From NCBI RefSeq assembly GCF_026965535.1, contig NZ_CP114039.1:4836001-4900000 (forward strand): 64,000 bases of DNA. Direction: 5' to 3'. Position 1 is the stretch's first letter. Each line of letters starts with the position of its first letter. This stretch comes from Corallococcus sp. NCRR (GTDB lineage Bacteria > Myxococcota > Myxococcia > Myxococcales > Myxococcaceae). The translations under genes and the position numbers were made by a program. The notes under the pieces are model-generated. The model saw only the letters and a list, made by a program, of their open reading frames with translations. It did no database searches and was not told where the DNA came from. Of the stretch, positions 55,198-63,442 are shown piece by piece.

Positions 55198-56085
55198 ATG
55201 GCGAACAATCCATCCGAGCTGGTCGCGGCATTCCGGGGGGCCGCGCGACCCCTGACCTCCGAGGAGGAGGCGGGGCTCCCGGCCATGCTGGCCTCCATCC
55301 TGGAGCGCTGTGCGGCGGCGTGGCCCGGCCTCCAGTTGGAGCCTGGACCCTTCGTCGCGCACCTGGGCCGGCATACGGCCTCGGGTGAGCCGCTCGCGCA
55401 GGCCCTGTCCGCGCTGCACTGTGAAGACCTGTACCTGGCGCTCGCGGCGCTGGATGGACAGCGGGCCGCGCTGGATGCGCTGGAGTCGGCCGTGCTGGTG
55501 CCGGCGGGGCGAGCGGTGCGCCGCGTGGAGAACTCGGACGCGTTCGTGGACGAGGTGCTCCAGCTCACGCGCTTGCGGCTCCTGGTGGAGGAGGGCGGCC
55601 GTGCGCCGCGCCTCACGGAGTACGCGGGCCGGGGACCCCTGCGGCGGTGGACGGAGGCCGTGGCGCTGGGCATCGCGCTGGCGCTCAAGCGCAAGCCGGA
55701 GCGGAGCACGCCGCTGGATGACGCGCTCATCGCCGCGGACCTGGGCGCGGCGGATCCGGAGCTGGAGCACATCCGCCACCGCTACCGTCCCGCCTTCCGC
55801 GCCGCCTTCGTGGAGGCGCTGGCCTCGCTCTCGCCGCGCGACCGCAACCTGCTGCGCATGGGCCTGGTGCAGGGCCTGGGCGTGGAGTCGCTGGGGGCGC
55901 TGCACCAGGTGCATGCCTCCACGGTGTCGCGGTGGATGGCGAAGGCACGCGAGGCGCTCCTGGTGCACACGCGTCAGGGCCTGGCCCGGCGGCTCGCGCT
56001 CAACACCTCCCAGTTGGACAGTCTGCTGCGCGTGCTCGACGGCAGCCTGGAGCTCAGCCTCGCGTCCCTGCTGAAGGAAGGGTGA
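55198..56085 (+). CDS. Sigma-70-like transcription factor, partner of the zinc-finger kinases
   Basis: 295 residues. The C-terminal half has an ECF region-4-like helix-turn-helix (EALASLSPRDRNLLRMGLVQGLGVESLGALHQVHASTVSRWM), with the SPRDR entry seen in sigma factors. The N-terminal half (residues 60-190) is alpha-helical and only loosely like sigma region 2. The family is known in myxobacteria as ECF-like factors next to Ser/Thr kinases. The next gene starts 9 bp later and has an anti-sigma zinc motif, so the kinase probably binds and controls this factor. The partner pairing is inference. Confidence 0.82.
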   Translation: MANNPSELVAAFRGAARPLTSEEEAGLPAMLASILERCAAAWPGLQLEPGPFVAHLGRHTASGEPLAQALSALHCEDLYLALAALDGQRAALDALESAVLVPAGRAVRRVENSDAFVDEVLQLTRLRLLVEEGGRAPRLTEYAGRGPLRRWTEAVALGIALALKRKPERSTPLDDALIAADLGAADPELEHIRHRYRPAFRAAFVEALASLSPRDRNLLRMGLVQGLGVESLGALHQVHASTVSRWMAKAREALLVHTRQGLARRLALNTSQLDSLLRVLDGSLELSLASLLKEG

Positions 56086-56094
56086 GTCCATCCC

Positions 56095-59000
56095 ATGCCC
56101 GAGTCCACTCCCCACCTCGACGAGGTCGAGCTGCTCGACCTCGCGGACGGCATCCCGTCACAGTCCCTGCGCGAGCGCGCGGAAACCCACCTGGACGCCT
56201 GCGCGTCCTGTCGCGAAGCTCTGGCGGACTTTTTGCGCGTGCGCGCCGTGCCCGCGCCGGACGTGCACGCCGCGCGCACCGCGGTGATGCTGTCGGAGCC
56301 GCTGACCCGCTCCGTCAAGCCTCGCATCCCCCAGGTGGCGCAGGGGACGCTTCTGGGGCGCTACGTGGTGCTGGATCGGCTGGGCGCGGGAGGCATGGGC
56401 GTCGTCCATGCGGCGTATGACCCCAGCCTCGACCGGCGCATTGGCCTGAAGCTGCTGCGCGCGCCGCCCGCCACGGGGAACTCGCAGGGCCAGACGGAGC
56501 AGCTCTTGCGCGAGGCCCAGGCCGCCGCGCGCACCCGCCACCCGCATGTCGTCGCGGTGCACGACGTGGGGACGTTCGGGGACGTGGTCTTCATCGCGAT
56601 GGAGCTGGTGGACGGCGGCACGCTGCGCCAGCACCTGCGCGAGGCCCCCCGGCCGTGGCGTGAGGTCGTGCGGCTGTATCTCCAAGCGGGCAGGGGGCTC
56701 GCGGCGGCGCACGCGGCGGGCGTGGTGCACCGGGACTTCAAGCCGGACAACGTGCTCGTGGACAAGGAGGGCCGCGCCCGCGTGACGGACTTCGGCCTGG
56801 CCCGCCTGGAATCCGCCGAGGAAGCCGCCGCCGCGCTGGGGCCCGGCAGGACCGCGTCGCCGAAGGGCGCCGCGGAAGATGCCGTGTCCGCGAAGGGCGT
56901 TCCGGGCGAGGCCTTGTCGCCAAAGGGCACCGCGGAAGATGCCGTGTCCGCGAAGGGCACCCCGGATGAGGCCTTGTCGCCGAAGGGCGTCCCGGGCGAG
57001 GCCTTGTCGCCGAAGGCCGTCCCGGCGGAGGTCGGCTCTCCGAGGGGGGCCCCGCGGGTCACCAGTGTCGCGGGCACGCCGGGATACATCGCGCCGGAGG
57101 TGCTCACGGGCGCCCCCGCGGACGCGCGGTCGGATCAGTACGCCTTCTGCGTCTCGTTGTACGAAGGGCTGCACGGCCGGCGCCCCGCCGCTCCGGACGC
57201 GGGCGGCCCGGTGAACCTGGGAGCTCTCCCTCGCGCCGTGCACGCGCTCCTCGTGCGCGGGCTGTCGCCGGAGCCGGGCGCCCGCCATCCCTCCATGAGG
57301 GTCCTGCTCGACGCGCTGGAGCGGGCGGCCTTCCCGCGCATCAGTGCGAAGGTCGCGACCGCTGGAGTGGGCGTGGGTCTGGCCGTGGTCGCGGCCACGG
57401 TGTTCGCGCTGAGGGGCCCTTCTCCCTGCGCGGATGAGCCGTCGCGGCTCGCCAGCGTCTGGGACGCGGACCGCGGCGCGGCGCTGCTCAAGGCCTTCCA
57501 GGCCACGGGCGCGCCGGGCGCGGTGGCCGCGCACGAGGCCACGGCCCGCGCGTTGGATGCGTACGCCTCCGCCTGGCATCATGGCCGCCGCGAGGCGTGC
57601 GAAGCCACGCGGGGACGCGGCGGCCAGTCAGAAGCCGTGATGGACCTGCGCATGAACTGCCTGGAGCGCCGCCGCCGCGAACTGGGCGCGCTCACGGACG
57701 TGCTGCTCGCCACGGACAAGGACCGTGTCCCCGCCGCTCCGGAAACGGTGCAGGCCCTGAGCCCGCTGTCGCGCTGCGCGGATGTGGAGGCGCTTTCGCA
57801 GCCAGTGCCCCCGCCAGAGCGGCCGGAGGTCGCCGCGCGGGTGAAGGCCGTGTTCGCGAAGCTGGACGACGCTCGCGCCCGGCTCAACGCGGACCGCTGG
57901 CAGGAGGCCGTGGACCGCGTGGCGCCCCTGGTCACCGAGGCGGAGGCGCTGGGCTACAAGCCGCTGCTGGGCGAGGCGCTGCTCATCCAGGGAGAAGCCC
58001 GCGCCTTCCTGCGCGACGAGGCCGCCGCCTCGACGTTGCGCCGCGCGATGCTGGCGTCGCTCGCGGGCCGTGACGACCTGCATGCCACCGAGGCCGTGGT
58101 GCATCAGGTGTTCATCGACGGGGAAGTCGCCCAGCGTCCGGAGCTGGCGAAGGTCCACGCGGAGGAGGCCCAGGCGCTCCTGGAGCGCTCTGGCGGCAAT
58201 CTGGAAATGCAGGCCCGGCTGCTGACGTTCCAGGCCTCGTCGCTCGTGCAGCAGTCCCGGCCCGCGGACGCGCTTCCGCTCCTTGAGCAGTCCCTGACCC
58301 TCCAGGAGCGGCTGTCCGGCGGCGACTCGCCCCGCGTCGCGCGCGAGCTGTTGCTCAAGGCCACGGCGCTTCGCCAGATGGGGCGGTCCGAAGAGTCCCT
58401 CGCGGCCGGTGCGCGGGCCCAGGCGTTGCTGGAGAAGGCCTACGGTCCGGACCACCCGAAGGTCGCGATGGTGCTCAACAACCGCGGCTCCACGCTCGTC
58501 GGCATGGGCCGCTACCAGGAGGCGCAGGCTGCCTTCCAGGAGAGCCTCATCCGCTACGAGCGCATGTACGGGCCCGGCCAGCCGTTGCGCTACGTCACCG
58601 GCCTGCGCGCCAACCTGGGCGCGGTGGCCTTCACCATGGGCCGCTACGACGAGGCCGAGCGCCTGCAACGCGAGGCCCTGAAGCTCTACCAGGAGCAGTT
58701 CCCGCCGGGCTCCCCCTACCGCGTCCGCACGGGCAACAACCTGTCGCTGGTCCTCACGAACCAGGGCCGCATGCAGGAGGCGCTCAAGCTCCTCCAGGAA
58801 ATGGAGGCGGAGCGCGAGGCTGCCACCGTGGACGGCCGCAAGGATCCGGTGTTCGCCACGACGCAGATGCTCTCCACGGAGGTGCACCTGCGCATGGGCC
58901 AGCCCGACCGCGCCGTTGCCTCCGCGAAGCGCGCGGTGGCGCTGCTGCGCGAGATGGGCGCGGAGGGCCAGTTGGTGGATGCCCTGCGCAACCTGACCGG

Positions 59001-59385
59001 CGCGCTCACCCGCGCGGAGCACTTCACCGAGGCCTGGCGCACGGGACAGGAGGCGCTCGCGCTGCACCACAAGCTCGCCGGCGCGGACGCGGCGCCCCCG
59101 CCGGACCTGGGCCAGGTGTTGGGCGAGTTGTCGATGGAGCGCGGCGACGCCGCGGGCGCCTGCCAGTGGTTGAACGACGCGCTGGCGCAGTGGGAGAAGA
59201 CAGAGGCCACGCCGTTGGAGCTGGCCGTCATCCGCTTCACCCTGGCGCGGGCCCTGCGCATGGCCCACCGCGAGCCGGAGCGGACCCGCGCGCTCGTCAC
59301 CGCCGCCCGCGACGCCGTCCTGCCCACCTCCGAGCCTCGGCTGCTCAAGCTCTCCGAACTGGACGCGTTCCTGCGCGCGCCTTGA
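56095..59385 (+). CDS. Receptor-type Ser/Thr kinase with N-terminal anti-sigma zinc motif, expanded activation segment and TPRs (copy 1)
   Basis: 1,096 residues. H32-x3-C36-x2-C39 is a zinc anti-sigma motif. The kinase domain is about 84-400: LGAGGMGVVHAAYD, catalytic HRDFKPDN (H212, D214), DFG 232-234, APE 333-335. Between DFG and APE there are about 100 residues instead of the usual 20-35, because six 10-residue SPKG/SAKG-type repeats (residues 255-314) sit there. One transmembrane helix lies near 418-441. The C-terminal ~600 residues are tetratricopeptide-like repeats (ALLEKAYGPDHPKVAMVLNN type), probably outside the cytoplasm. It starts 9 bp after the sigma gene and is a tandem duplicate of the next gene. 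Confidence 0.92.
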   Translation: MPESTPHLDEVELLDLADGIPSQSLRERAETHLDACASCREALADFLRVRAVPAPDVHAARTAVMLSEPLTRSVKPRIPQVAQGTLLGRYVVLDRLGAGGMGVVHAAYDPSLDRRIGLKLLRAPPATGNSQGQTEQLLREAQAAARTRHPHVVAVHDVGTFGDVVFIAMELVDGGTLRQHLREAPRPWREVVRLYLQAGRGLAAAHAAGVVHRDFKPDNVLVDKEGRARVTDFGLARLESAEEAAAALGPGRTASPKGAAEDAVSAKGVPGEALSPKGTAEDAVSAKGTPDEALSPKGVPGEALSPKAVPAEVGSPRGAPRVTSVAGTPGYIAPEVLTGAPADARSDQYAFCVSLYEGLHGRRPAAPDAGGPVNLGALPRAVHALLVRGLSPEPGARHPSMRVLLDALERAAFPRISAKVATAGVGVGLAVVAATVFALRGPSPCADEPSRLASVWDADRGAALLKAFQATGAPGAVAAHEATARALDAYASAWHHGRREACEATRGRGGQSEAVMDLRMNCLERRRRELGALTDVLLATDKDRVPAAPETVQALSPLSRCADVEALSQPVPPPERPEVAARVKAVFAKLDDARARLNADRWQEAVDRVAPLVTEAEALGYKPLLGEALLIQGEARAFLRDEAAASTLRRAMLASLAGRDDLHATEAVVHQVFIDGEVAQRPELAKVHAEEAQALLERSGGNLEMQARLLTFQASSLVQQSRPADALPLLEQSLTLQERLSGGDSPRVARELLLKATALRQMGRSEESLAAGARAQALLEKAYGPDHPKVAMVLNNRGSTLVGMGRYQEAQAAFQESLIRYERMYGPGQPLRYVTGLRANLGAVAFTMGRYDEAERLQREALKLYQEQFPPGSPYRVRTGNNLSLVLTNQGRMQEALKLLQEMEAEREAATVDGRKDPVFATTQMLSTEVHLRMGQPDRAVASAKRAVALLREMGAEGQLVDALRNLTGALTRAEHFTEAWRTGQEALALHHKLAGADAAPPPDLGQVLGELSMERGDAAGACQWLNDALAQWEKTEATPLELAVIRFTLARALRMAHREPERTRALVTAARDAVLPTSEPRLLKLSELDAFLRAP
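56857..57036 (+). repeat. Six 30-bp tandem repeats in the kinase activation segment
   Basis: Units 56857-56886, 56887-56916, 56917-56946, 56947-56976, 56977-57006 and 57007-57036, with a partial seventh (SPRG). They encode S(P/A)K(G/A)xxx(E/D)xx. Alternating units (1 and 3; 2 and 4) are almost identical, so a 60-bp pair seems to be the unit that expanded last. The duplicate kinase lacks them. Confidence 0.9.
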
Positions 59386-59486
59386 TGTGCGTGACGCCAC
59401 GGCCGCCAGGGTCCCGCTCCCGATGAGGACCCACGTCGGACCTCCACCGCTCCGCGTCCCTGCTGAAGGAAGGGTGAGTCCATCCC
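59386..59486 (+). repeat. Readable junction of the tandem kinase duplication
   Basis: The left part (about 59405-59440) is a decayed copy of the GST gene start found at 62687-62720 (CAGGGTCCCGCTCCC, then GTCGGAC). The right part (about 59455-59486) copies the end of the sigma-like gene and its spacer at 56063-56094 (CTGCTGAAGGAAGGGTGAG). The join therefore marks where the second unit was added. Confidence 0.8.
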
Positions 59487-62400
59487 ATGCCCGAGTCCAC
59501 TCCCCACCTCGACGAGGTCGAGCTGCTCGACCTCGCGGACGGCATCCCGTCACAGTCCCTGCGCGAGCGCGCCGAAGCCCACCTGGACGCCTGCGCGTCC
59601 TGCCGCGAGGCCCTGGCGGACTTCCTGCGCGTGCGCGCCGCCCCCGCGCCGGATGTGCACGCCGCGCGCACCGCGGTGATGCTTTCGGAACCGCACACGG
59701 GCTCCGTCCGGCCCCGCATCCCCCAGGTGGCGCAGGGGACGCTGCTGGGGCGCTACGTGGTGCTGGAGCGGCTGGGCGCGGGGGGCATGGGCGTCGTCCA
59801 TGCGGCGTATGACCCGAGCCTCGACCGGCGCATTGGCCTGAAGCTGCTGCGCGCGCCGCCCGCCACGGGCGGTTCGCGGGGAATGACGGAGCAGCTCTTG
59901 CGCGAGGCCCAGGCCGCCGCGCGCACGCGCCACCCGCATGTCGTCACGGTGCACGACGTGGGGACGTTCGGGGACGTGGTCTTCATCGCGATGGAGTTGG
60001 TGGACGGCGGCACGCTGCGCCAGCACCTGCGTGAGGCCACGCGGCACTGGCGCGACGTGGTGCGGCTGTATCTTCAAGCGGGCAGGGGGCTCGCGGCGGC
60101 GCACGCGGCGGGCGTGGTGCACCGGGACTTCAAGCCGGACAACGTCCTCGTGGACAAGGAAGGCCGCGCCCGCGTGACGGACTTCGGCCTGGCCCGCCTG
60201 GAGTCCACCGGGGAAGGGGACAGCACCGCGCGGCGCCTCGGTGAGGGCGGGTCACCGGAAGGAGCGCCCGCGCTGGCTTCGGGGGAAGGCGCCTCTCCGG
60301 TCCCGGGCATGGCCCCGTCGCCGAAGGCGGCCCCGCGGGTCACCCACGTCGCGGGCACGCCCGGGTACATCGCGCCGGAGGTCTTCACGGGCGCTCCCGC
60401 GGACGCGCGGTCGGATCAGTACGCCTTCTGCGTGTCGCTGTACGAAGGGCTGCATGGCCACAAGCCCTCCTCCTCCGAGGTGGGAGGCCTGGCGAACCGC
60501 GGCAACGCCCCGCGCGCCGTGCACGCGCTCATCGTGCGGGGACTGTCGCCGGAGCCGGGCGCCCGCCATCCCTCCATGACGGCCCTGCTCGACGCGCTGG
60601 AGCGGGCGGCCTTCCCTCGCACCGGCGCGAAGGTGGTGGCCGCGGGCGTGGGCGCGGGCCTGCTCGCCATCGCGGCCGTGGTGGTGGTGGCCCAGGGGCC
60701 GTCGCCCTGCGCGGACGACCCCACGCGCCTCCAGGGCGTCTGGGACGCGGACCGCGGGGCGGCGCTGCGTCAGGCCTTCGAGGCCTCGGGCGCGCCGGAT
60801 GCCGTCGCCGTCTTCGAGACGACCTCCCGCGCGCTGGACGCCTTCGCCTCCGCCTGGCACGCCAGCCGCCGCGAGGCATGCGTGGCCACGCACGAGCACG
60901 GAACCCAGTCCGAGGCCATGCTGGACCTCCGGATGAACTGCCTGGAGCGCCGCCGCCGCGAGCTGACCTCGCTCACGGAGGTGCTCCTCGCCGCGGACCG
61001 GGTGGGCGTCGCCAGTGCCCCGGAGGCCGCCCAGGCGCTCAGCCCGCTGTCGCGCTGCGCGGACGTGGAGGCCCTTTCCCAGCCCGTGCCCCCGCCGGAG
61101 CGGCCGGAGGTCGCCGTCCGCGTGAAGGCCGCGTACGCGAAGCTGGACGACGCTCGCGCCCGGCTCAACGCGGACCGCTGGCAGGACGCCGTGGACCGCG
61201 TCGCCCCCATCGTGAAGGAGGCGGAGGCGCTGGACTACAAGCCGCTGCTGGGCGAGGCGCTGCTCATCGAGGGCCAGGCCCGCGCCTTCCTGCGCGACGA
61301 TGTCGCGACCCCGGTGCTGCGCCGCGCGATGCTGACGTCGCTGTCGGGGCGGGACGACCTGCGTGCCGCCGAGGCGGCGGTGTTCCAGGTCTTCGTCGAT
61401 GGCGAGGTGGCGAACCGTCCTGAACAGGCGAAGGCCCACGCCGAGGAGGCCCGGGCCATCCTGGAGCGCTCTGGCGGCAACGTGGACCTGGAGGCGCAGT
61501 TGCTCGTCCACGAGGGCAATTCCCTTGCGCGGCAGCGCTCGACGGAGGCACAGGCGCTGCTCCAGCAGGCGCTGGCGCTGCAGGAGCGACTGTATGGGCG
61601 CGACTCGCCCCGGCTCGACCGCGTGCTGCTCGCGATGGCGTCCGCCCAGCGGGGCATGGGGCGCATGGAGGAGTCGCTCGCAACGCTCCATCGCGTCCAG
61701 CGCGTGCTGGAGAAAGCCTACGGCCCGGACCACCCGAAGGTCGCCGTCCTGCTCACCAACCTGGGGGGAACCTTGTTGGAGATGCAGCGCTTCGAGGAGG
61801 CGCGGGAGGTCTTTCTGGAGAGCCTCCACCGCAATGAGCGCATCTACGGCTCCGACCCACCGCTGCGCCACGTCGGCGGCTTGAAGATGAACCTGGGCGT
61901 GCTGGCCTTTCGACTGGGGCAGCATGATGAGGCCGAGCGGCGCATGACGGAGGCCCGTTCCGCCTACATGAAGCTGTATCCCAAGGGCTCCCTCTTCCGC
62001 ATCCGCGCGGGCTCCAACCTGTCCGTCGTGCTCCTGGACCGCGGCCGGGTCACCGAGGCCATGGCGCTGCTGGACGCGGTGCAGGAGGAGGTCGAGACGG
62101 CGCAGGCCGACGGCCGCAGTGATCCGATGTTCGCGATGGTCCCCGCCAACCAGGCCATGTGCTACCTGCGCCTGGGGCAGCCGGAGCGCGCCGTCGAGGC
62201 GGCGAGGCGCGGCGTGGAACTCGTGCGGCGGATGAACGCGGAGACCAAGCTGGGCGAGGCGCTGCGGATGCTGGCCCTCACGCTCATCCGGGCGAAGCGC
62301 CTCAACGAAGCCCGGGAGGTGGCGCGCGAGGCCCTGGCCTTGTTCCACAAGCTCGCGGGTGAAGAGGCCCGGCCCCCCGTGGAGTTGGAGGAGATGCTGG

Positions 62401-62663
62401 GCGAATTGGCCCTGGAGCGGGGAGAGAACGAAGAGGCCCTCCGGTGGACGGAGCGCGCCCTGGAGGCCTGGACCCTGGCGGCGGCACCGCCCGTGGACAT
62501 GGCCAACACCCGCTTCGTCCTGGCCCGCGCGCTGCGCCGGGCCCACCGGGACCCCGAGCGCGCGAGAGCGCTCGCCACGGCCGCCCGCGACGCAATGCTC
62601 CCCATCCCCGAGCCCCGCCCCCTGAGCCTCAAGGCGCTGGACGCGTTCCTGCGCGAACACTGA
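59487..62663 (+). CDS. Receptor-type Ser/Thr kinase with N-terminal anti-sigma zinc motif and TPRs (copy 2)
   Basis: 1,058 residues, a paralogue of the previous gene with the same layout: zinc anti-sigma motif HLDACASC, kinase domain with LGAGGMGVVHAAYD, catalytic HRDFKPDN and DFG at 232, then APE at 296. It has a non-repetitive activation segment, a transmembrane helix (VVAAGVGAGLLAIAAVVVVA) and tetratricopeptide repeats. The first ~230 residues are close to identical to copy 1, while the TPR region has diverged, as expected if the input domain changed after duplication. It has no sigma gene of its own directly upstream, only the copied tail of one. Confidence 0.92.
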   Translation: MPESTPHLDEVELLDLADGIPSQSLRERAEAHLDACASCREALADFLRVRAAPAPDVHAARTAVMLSEPHTGSVRPRIPQVAQGTLLGRYVVLERLGAGGMGVVHAAYDPSLDRRIGLKLLRAPPATGGSRGMTEQLLREAQAAARTRHPHVVTVHDVGTFGDVVFIAMELVDGGTLRQHLREATRHWRDVVRLYLQAGRGLAAAHAAGVVHRDFKPDNVLVDKEGRARVTDFGLARLESTGEGDSTARRLGEGGSPEGAPALASGEGASPVPGMAPSPKAAPRVTHVAGTPGYIAPEVFTGAPADARSDQYAFCVSLYEGLHGHKPSSSEVGGLANRGNAPRAVHALIVRGLSPEPGARHPSMTALLDALERAAFPRTGAKVVAAGVGAGLLAIAAVVVVAQGPSPCADDPTRLQGVWDADRGAALRQAFEASGAPDAVAVFETTSRALDAFASAWHASRREACVATHEHGTQSEAMLDLRMNCLERRRRELTSLTEVLLAADRVGVASAPEAAQALSPLSRCADVEALSQPVPPPERPEVAVRVKAAYAKLDDARARLNADRWQDAVDRVAPIVKEAEALDYKPLLGEALLIEGQARAFLRDDVATPVLRRAMLTSLSGRDDLRAAEAAVFQVFVDGEVANRPEQAKAHAEEARAILERSGGNVDLEAQLLVHEGNSLARQRSTEAQALLQQALALQERLYGRDSPRLDRVLLAMASAQRGMGRMEESLATLHRVQRVLEKAYGPDHPKVAVLLTNLGGTLLEMQRFEEAREVFLESLHRNERIYGSDPPLRHVGGLKMNLGVLAFRLGQHDEAERRMTEARSAYMKLYPKGSLFRIRAGSNLSVVLLDRGRVTEAMALLDAVQEEVETAQADGRSDPMFAMVPANQAMCYLRLGQPERAVEAARRGVELVRRMNAETKLGEALRMLALTLIRAKRLNEAREVAREALALFHKLAGEEARPPVELEEMLGELALERGENEEALRWTERALEAWTLAAAPPVDMANTRFVLARALRRAHRDPERARALATAARDAMLPIPEPRPLSLKALDAFLREH

Positions 62664-62701
62664 AGGCCCGCTCCACCGGGGCTGCTAGGGTCCCGCTCCC
62701 T

Positions 62702-63442
62702 ATGCGAATCCTCGTCGGACTGACCTCGTCGGGCTGGACGGAGAAGGCCCGGTGGGCGTTGGACCACCACCGCGTCGCCTACCGCTACCAGGACTACGTC
62801 CCCCTCATCCAGGAGCGCTGGCTGCGCAAGCAGGTGGCGCCCGGCGTGAAGCCCTCCGTGCCGCTGCTCGTGGATCCGCCCAACCCGGCCACGCACGGCT
62901 CGTTCTCCATCGCGAAGCACGCGGAAGCCGTGGGGCAGGGCCGCCCGCTCTTCCCGGCCGCGCAGGCGGACGCCATCACCGCGTGGAACGACACCAGCGA
63001 ACACGTGCTGGACCTGGCGCGCGCCTACGCCATGCCGCGCATGCTGACGAACGCCCGCGCCCAGGCGGAGATGCTGCCGAAGTTCATCCCCGGCTGGCTG
63101 CGCCCGGTGTTCGCGCCCTCCGCGCGCCTGGGCATGCGCTTCGTGGTGAAGAAGCACCAGGTGGCGGACACCTCGCCGGAGGCCATTGAGGCCGCCGTGG
63201 CCCCCTCCTACGAGAAGCTGCGCGCCGCGCTGGGCGGCCGGCCCTACTTGCTGGGCGAGGGCCTCACCTACGCGGACATCACCGCCGCGGTGATGCTCGT
63301 GCTCCTGGTGCCGCCCGCGGACCGGCACCTGCCCATGGGGGCGGGCACGCGCGAGGTGTGGACCCATCCGGGGCTCGCCGCCCGCTTCCCGGACCTGCTC
63401 GCGTGGCGCGACGCGCTCTACGACAAGCACCGCCGCACCTGA
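62702..63442 (+). CDS. Glutathione S-transferase family protein
   Basis: 246 residues. A thioredoxin-like N-terminal domain (MRILVGLTSSGWTEKARWALDHH, with SPYxxK-type positions read as SSGWTEKAR) includes the cis-proline region VKPSVPLL. A helical C-terminal domain ends in LGEGLTYADITAAVML, the GST hydrophobic staple and capping region. The substrate is unknown. The ATG at 62702 lies 38 bp after the second kinase. The decayed copy of this 5' end lies at the duplication junction upstream. Confidence 0.88.
   Translation: MRILVGLTSSGWTEKARWALDHHRVAYRYQDYVPLIQERWLRKQVAPGVKPSVPLLVDPPNPATHGSFSIAKHAEAVGQGRPLFPAAQADAITAWNDTSEHVLDLARAYAMPRMLTNARAQAEMLPKFIPGWLRPVFAPSARLGMRFVVKKHQVADTSPEAIEAAVAPSYEKLRAALGGRPYLLGEGLTYADITAAVMLVLLVPPADRHLPMGAGTREVWTHPGLAARFPDLLAWRDALYDKHRRT

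Follow-up and report, generated by a model that had tools for sequence, protein, structure and literature searches.

Architecture of the locus

The window (the whole 64-kb stretch of Corallococcus sp. NCRR DNA analyzed here) carries two related kinase genes in tandem, P1 and P2, preceded by a sigma factor gene. The features on which the analysis rests are the following.

55198..56085, + strand: sigma-70 factor gene (TIGR03001, Sig-70_gmx1), directly upstream of P1; NCBIfam score 238.9 bits, cut-off 154.6
56095..59385, + strand: kinase P1, with an HxxxCxxC N-terminus, a Ser/Thr kinase domain (Pfam PF00069, 117 bits), one predicted transmembrane (TM) helix, and a TPR region (matched by TPR families)
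56188..56211, + strand: HLDACASC motif of P1; motif kept in 16/16 genes of the group
56788..57099, + strand: P1 activation segment, DFG to APE, 104 aa, residues 232-335; the insert is its low-pLDDT stretch
56857..57036, + strand: six 30-bp in-frame tandem repeats in P1
57061..57063, + strand: codon of Thr323 of P1, the invariant core Thr, 4 residues before GTPGYIAPE; Thr in 16/16 genes
57352..57408, + strand: predicted TM helix of P1, residues 420-438, a Kyte-Doolittle hydropathy peak after the kinase domain
59487..62663, + strand: sister kinase P2, a tandem duplicate with a Pkinase domain and a TPR region, sharing similar blocks with P1
60180..60380, + strand: P2 activation segment, 67 aa, without array

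The sequence of P1 is that of an intact Hanks-type membrane receptor kinase. In an alignment of 64 kinases (A1, with P1, P2, and the kinases of loci L021 and L069 and without those of L133, L135, and L239), the catalytic K, E, HRD, N, DFG, and APE residues and the D and R of the C-lobe are invariant, with invariant columns at G22, G24, K44, E65, H137-D139, N144, D157-G159, and P259-E260 in P1 construct numbering. We take the Gly loop, the VAIK Lys, the alpha-C Glu, and the HRD, DFG, and APE motifs of P1 to fill their catalytic roles. P1 belongs to a group of receptors of 1030-1110 residues, and its TPR region would lie outside the membrane. The HLDACASC motif resembles the HxxxCxxC of anti-sigma zinc fingers (ZAS, zf-HC2); the N-terminal HxxxCxxC of P1 and P2 gave no Pfam zinc-finger match at an E value of 0.001.

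Homologues of the sigma gene and of a GST-like gene each occur in 13/13 other Corallococcus loci, and a receptor kinase beside an ECF-like sigma gene was found for P1 and for all 13 of them. The Sig-70_gmx1 factor is probably the partner of P1, by comparison with two pairs described in the available parts of the respective papers: PknS of Xanthomonas citri, a cytoplasmic kinase with a TM helix and periplasmic TPRs, phosphorylates its cognate sigma factor EcfK (PMC13147305), and EcfP of Vibrio parahaemolyticus is phosphorylated by PknT (PMC8999054). The window locus shares with PknS/EcfK the kinase-TM-TPR receptor accompanied by a sigma factor. It differs from both pairs in the TIGR03001 (Sig-70_gmx1) assignment of its sigma factor, in the N-terminal HxxxCxxC of P1, and in that phosphorylation of the sigma factor by its kinase would be putative. 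Sigma factors of the EcfK/EcfP type form group ECF43 and lack the DAED motif; that of P1 is assigned here by its TIGR03001 match. By analogy with PknS/EcfK, P1 may act as a sigma-controlling receptor.

Tandem duplication and mosaic origin of P1

Similar blocks within 56061-59441 and 59453-62720 delineate a tandem duplication bounded by the end of the sigma gene on one side and the start of the GST gene on the other. A remnant at 59423-59441, between the two kinases, resembles the start of the GST-like gene and marks the duplication junction. The duplicated kinase gene (56061-62720) sets the window apart from the fetched stretches of the 13 other Corallococcus species, each of which holds one kinase gene of the P1 kind. 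P1 itself is of mosaic make-up: P2, L127, and L129 come nearest to its N part (92-94%), the P1-P2 pairing having weak support (0.175), and its C part is closest to L126 of C. carmarthensis (90%, support 1.0), with other Corallococcus sequences at 63-80%. The switch, placed by eye, falls after the APE motif at residues 340-420, and in type the activation segment belongs with the P2 clade.

A repeat array inside the activation segment of P1

The initial annotation had placed six 30-bp repeats within the DFG-APE segment of P1 and described that of the sister gene as 37 residues shorter and non-repeated. Both descriptions hold. Tandem Repeats Finder reported an array at 56852-57054 with a period of 30, 6.8 copies, 73% matches, and a score of 161; read as a 60-bp unit, the array reaches 81% matches and a score of 228, and as a 90-bp unit, a score of 229. 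The other four rows reported within the 64-kb window score 52-59 only, which makes the P1 array by far the strongest. The six units encode SPKGAAEDAV, SAKGVPGEAL, SPKGTAEDAV, SAKGTPDEAL, SPKGVPGEAL, and SPKAVPAEVG, followed after 57036 by a partial seventh, SPRGAP; units 3 and 4 are near-copies of units 1 and 2 (93% and 83% identity). When the codons of the segment were shuffled 300 times, the score never came to 161, the highest being 86. Chance or low-complexity composition as the source of the array is dismissed by these shuffles, together with the absence of any further array scoring at least 80 in the 204 kb of window and orthologous loci described below. An assembly artefact is unlikely for the window genome, which is a single contig in which the copies are imperfect.

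The DFG-to-APE segment of P2 measures 67 aa versus 104 aa in P1, a difference of 37 residues. No array was reported in P2 at a score of at least 30, and the self-similarity of its insert is not above that of shuffled versions (26% of 400 reach the same level). The P2 insert contains one SPK besides other loose SPx motifs.

Segment length within the window genome

The window genome has 109 PF00069 matches, and a motif pattern recovered 80 distinct DFG-to-APE segments from it, P1 and P2 included, with 10/80 fetched regions yielding none. The median over these 80 segments is 29 aa and the 90th percentile 36. At 104 aa, P1 has the longest true segment of the genome, ahead of L218 (68 aa) and P2 (67 aa); a 103-aa segment at locus L225 of the same genome was a miscall of the motif pattern and was set aside. 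The kinase of L218 (G000:C1:2585100-2586150) has a proline-rich activation segment without array. The idea that long segments are general to the kinases of this genome was rejected on the median of 29 aa. The 108 segments from other loci, which were picked as relatives of P1, have a median of 48.5 aa; therefore, the wider group of P1 starts from an already long loop. Arrays at a score of 50 were found in 7/188 distinct segments, namely, those of P1, L128, L133, L135, and L069 and, more weakly, L081 and L139.

Length variation and arrays across Corallococcus

A match to the kinase was found in 14/16 genomes of the genus (one genome per species, window genome included). In the 13 other genomes, the segments measure 41, 45, 45, 49, 49, 52, 52, 52, 52, 59, 77, 78, and 112 aa. 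The 15 Corallococcus genes thus span 41 to 112 aa in this segment, and the rest of the protein is almost constant in length. Over 14 genes, the activation segment has a length standard deviation of 21.9 aa, compared with 1.1 aa in the N part (~232 aa) and 0.58 aa in the C part (~761 aa), values computed without the outgroup L024 and without L129, whose C-terminal end reads differently (C part of 767 aa).

Substantial arrays occur in four of the 15 genes: P1 (30 bp), L128 of C. exercitus (42 bp x 2.9), L133 (42 bp x 2.0), and L135 (48 bp x 2.6). Short runs scoring 30-39 are additionally present in P1, L128, L131, and L137. With 400 shuffles per insert, the self-similarity of P1 and L128 was reached by none, that of L133 by 0.5%, and that of L135 by 4%; the inserts of L126 (0.75%) and L129 (3%) are self-similar although they lack an array, and the remaining ones are not. 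The amplified units are of different kinds. That of L128 is akin to an SPK stretch present once in L129, and those of L133 and L135 are degenerate copies resembling the AGTPGYIAP stretch. L130, a relative of L133 and L135 (92-97% identity in the N part), has no array. Repeat number, which the initial annotation had proposed to compare among relatives, is therefore not identical in all of them: both count and unit differ between species. In the 204,012 bp made up of the window and the 13 orthologous loci, no array scoring at least 80 lies outside the activation segments of P1, L128, L133, and L135; the 15 activation segments account for ~1.4% of this sequence.

Apart from their lengths, L133 and L135 carry AGTPGxxAP-like copies of the P+1/APE region upstream of the true motif, a possible source of error where kinases are annotated by motif.

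A second kinase group in Myxococcus

An array is likewise present in the activation segment of L069, a kinase from Myxococcus eversor whose gene has a sigma homologue upstream. A search of 27 genomes of this genus gave matches at an E value of 1e-110 or better in 21. Among the 27 genes measured, paralogues included, 25 have segments of 40-43 aa. The other two are L238 of M. eversor (82 aa, 60 bp x 2.5) and L239 of its closest relative found, G081 (141 aa, 60 bp x 5.3). The flanks of these segments are nearly the same in both genes, the 100 residues upstream being 98% identical and those downstream 95%. The 60-bp unit includes the DFG motif and generates pseudo-DFG "DVG" copies: past its true DFG, L239 has four DVGLANA copies and a partial fifth, DVGPASA, each preceded by a pseudo beta-8 strand, GEVRST or GPVRST, and L238 has DVGPANA and DVSPTSA. 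The C part is less uniform here than in Corallococcus, at 769-775 aa in 24/26 genes and 795 aa in two. Matches to the L069 kinase in another genus were just 35-39% identical and were left out of the comparison. Arrays with different units in four Corallococcus genes and in a second group in Myxococcus make this a recurrent phenomenon.

Selection on units, kinase domains, and motifs

Among pooled pairs of P1 units, pN is 0.250 and pS 0.245, a ratio of about 1.0; the pooled between-unit pN/pS is 0.45 in L128 and 0.72 in L239. Divergence between units thus varies among the arrays, from neutral to under mild constraint. For the kinase parts, pN/pS was obtained as simple pairwise averages, and because P1 is a mosaic, its N and C parts were set against different clades. 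Against its own clade, the N part gave 0.24 for P1 and 0.24 for P2, and the C-lobe gave 0.34 and 0.30. L128, L133, and L135 fall inside the range of unexpanded genes, and the C-lobe of P1 lies at the upper end along with that of its nearest relative, L126 (0.37). Between L238 and L239, pN/pS is 0.06 before the DFG and 0.19 in the C-lobe despite segments of 82 and 141 aa. These low values in the kinase parts mean that the arrays sit in kinases still under purifying selection. As a separate observation, the TPR region of P2 has a pN/pS of 0.56, versus 0.35-0.41 in the other copies; a change in the sensor specificity of P2 after duplication is possible.

A degenerating duplicate, with its loop free to grow, could be suspected in P1 given its origin from a tandem pair, its mosaic structure, and the upper-end C-lobe value. 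We give this reading hardly any credence and reject it because P1 matches its relatives in the low pN/pS of the N part and because arrays also occur in genes that have no tandem partner (L128, L133, and L135, whose fetched loci each hold a single kinase gene); the catalytic residues of P1 are likewise kept.

The initial annotation had also seen in each repeat an S-P/A-K motif and had suggested that repeat number could vary between strains and tune autophosphorylation or partner access. If the repeated Ser-Pro/Ala-Lys were phosphorylated, the array could work as a rheostat or docking platform. Ser is present in 7/7 P1 units and Lys in 6/7, with Arg in the last, the changes being too few to test, and the L128 array keeps SPK in 3/3 units at a unit pN/pS of 0.45. 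However, SPK occurs in 4/16 genes and is absent from 12/16, S-P/A-K/R is absent from 11/16, and arrays elsewhere are built from GTPGYIAP-like or DFG-containing units that lack SPK. SPK as a conserved functional motif is therefore not our main reading, and as SPK is missing from 12/16 genes and the P1 units diverge near-neutrally (pN equal to pS), we regard a phosphosite rheostat as clearly improbable. As the functional unit, the S-P/A-K motif is at best weakly supported, although the SPK-keeping L128 units show some constraint. The conserved portion is instead the end of the segment, after the insert, with the core T323-S-V-A-GTPGYIAPE. Thr323, conserved in 16/16 genes, is likely an activating autophosphorylation site.

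Repeat number might itself be selected, with a longer disordered loop shifting the activation threshold or the dimer exchange of a sigma-linked receptor. Copy number does differ between M. eversor and its closest relative found within flanks that are 95-98% identical, arrays arose in two kinase groups, none scoring at least 80 lies elsewhere in the 204 kb, and the array-bearing kinases are under purifying selection. We nevertheless hold such tuning to be rather unlikely, given the near-neutral divergence of the P1 units and the lack of arrays in most genes (11/15 in Corallococcus and 25/27 in Myxococcus).

Predicted structure

Structure prediction, proposed along with the repeats, returned for P1 a confident kinase fold (AlphaFold with 64 aligned kinases; 200/355 residues at 90 or above) interrupted by the insert. 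Model residues 160-241 have a pLDDT of about 40, under 50, and the P+1 region after the insert is again above 90. The L069 model is like that of P1, with low confidence over 155-211. The first Foldseek matches of the P1 model are PknI, PknB, and PknA of Mycobacterium tuberculosis (E about 1e-17), which confirms the kinase fold. These share that fold with P1 and lack a comparable insert, the chains matched being kinase domains of ~245-275 residues. Their sensor regions also differ from that of P1. Disorder-promoting residues make up 83% of the inserts versus 58% of the whole proteins. Low pLDDT is no proof of disorder, and taken together with this composition, it makes the inserts likely disordered.

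In another reading, the insert would be an ordered autoinhibitory plug or a surface that binds the sigma factor. The available part of one source describes the long activation loop of NDR1 as ordered and proposed to be autoinhibitory (PMC8086140), and at our locus the sigma gene adjoins the kinase. Both versions are very improbable for P1, whose insert has a pLDDT of about 40 and a sequence that is not conserved across the group.

Discussion

The initial annotation knew of no described kinase with a minisatellite in its activation loop, and none emerged among the open-access matches listed: in their titles and abstract openings, none concerned tandem repeats in a kinase activation segment, most subscription papers being outside this coverage. 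Long segments as such have precedents in eukaryotes. According to the portions available of the sources, Greatwall/MASTL has a large, less conserved DFG-APE insert, which in Greatwall is dispensable in vitro (PMC5342071, PMC11961639): the kinase is fully active in vitro with its ~500-aa insert swapped for four residues, and the insert is phosphorylated by Cyclin B-Cdk1 (PMC5342071). P1 shares this Greatwall-like trait, with 104 aa against a genome median of 29. Greatwall/MASTL differs in being a eukaryotic AGC kinase with a far longer, Cyclin B-Cdk1-phosphorylated insert, for which these portions mention no tandem array, whereas P1 is not of the AGC/MAST type, its best fold and NCBIfam matches being bacterial PknB-like kinases. 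NDR1/2, LATS1/2, and phototropins likewise have activation loops well above the usual length (57-75 aa against 20-30 residues; PMC8086140), and they differ from P1 in being eukaryotic, in the ordered loop of NDR1, and in that the available text mentions no repeats.

Our best reading, to which we give somewhat better than even confidence, is that the P1 insert is a permissive, slippage-driven, disordered, and length-variable tether in a working kinase. An insert between the DFG and the conserved core would be tolerated by the kinase fold, and in-frame DNA repeats would grow and shrink through slippage or unequal recombination. We propose that, since they do so in frame, loop length can drift far while the kinase stays working. 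The insert would then form a disordered tether ahead of the conserved core with its putatively activating Thr. At the very most, its length would serve as a graded entropic tether that influences loop closure or trans-autophosphorylation; an effect of repeat length on kinase activation is possible. Against a neutral tether, not all arrays diverge neutrally (L128 and L239, as given above), and in the part of the source at hand, the long loop of NDR1 is ordered (PMC8086140). The concentration of arrays at this one place could also reflect selection for change rather than tolerance. In a more far-reaching and unlikely version, the loops would be evolvable length dials, in which minisatellites, some of them copies of the DFG or APE boundaries, recur, change copy number, and tune the activation threshold of the receptor or offer decoy DFG or P+1 motifs in competition with the genuine ones.

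The activation segment is regarded as being among the most constrained switches of a kinase. In these receptors, it is the length-changing part, through arrays in two kinase groups under selection. A practical warning follows for annotation, as such kinases can be broken up by motif or HMM matching: P1 and P2 are each hit by PF00069 in two pieces. Beyond the permissive tether favored here, the myxobacterial genes provide a natural loop series, from 40 to 141 aa, for asking how loop length and order matter in kinase activation.
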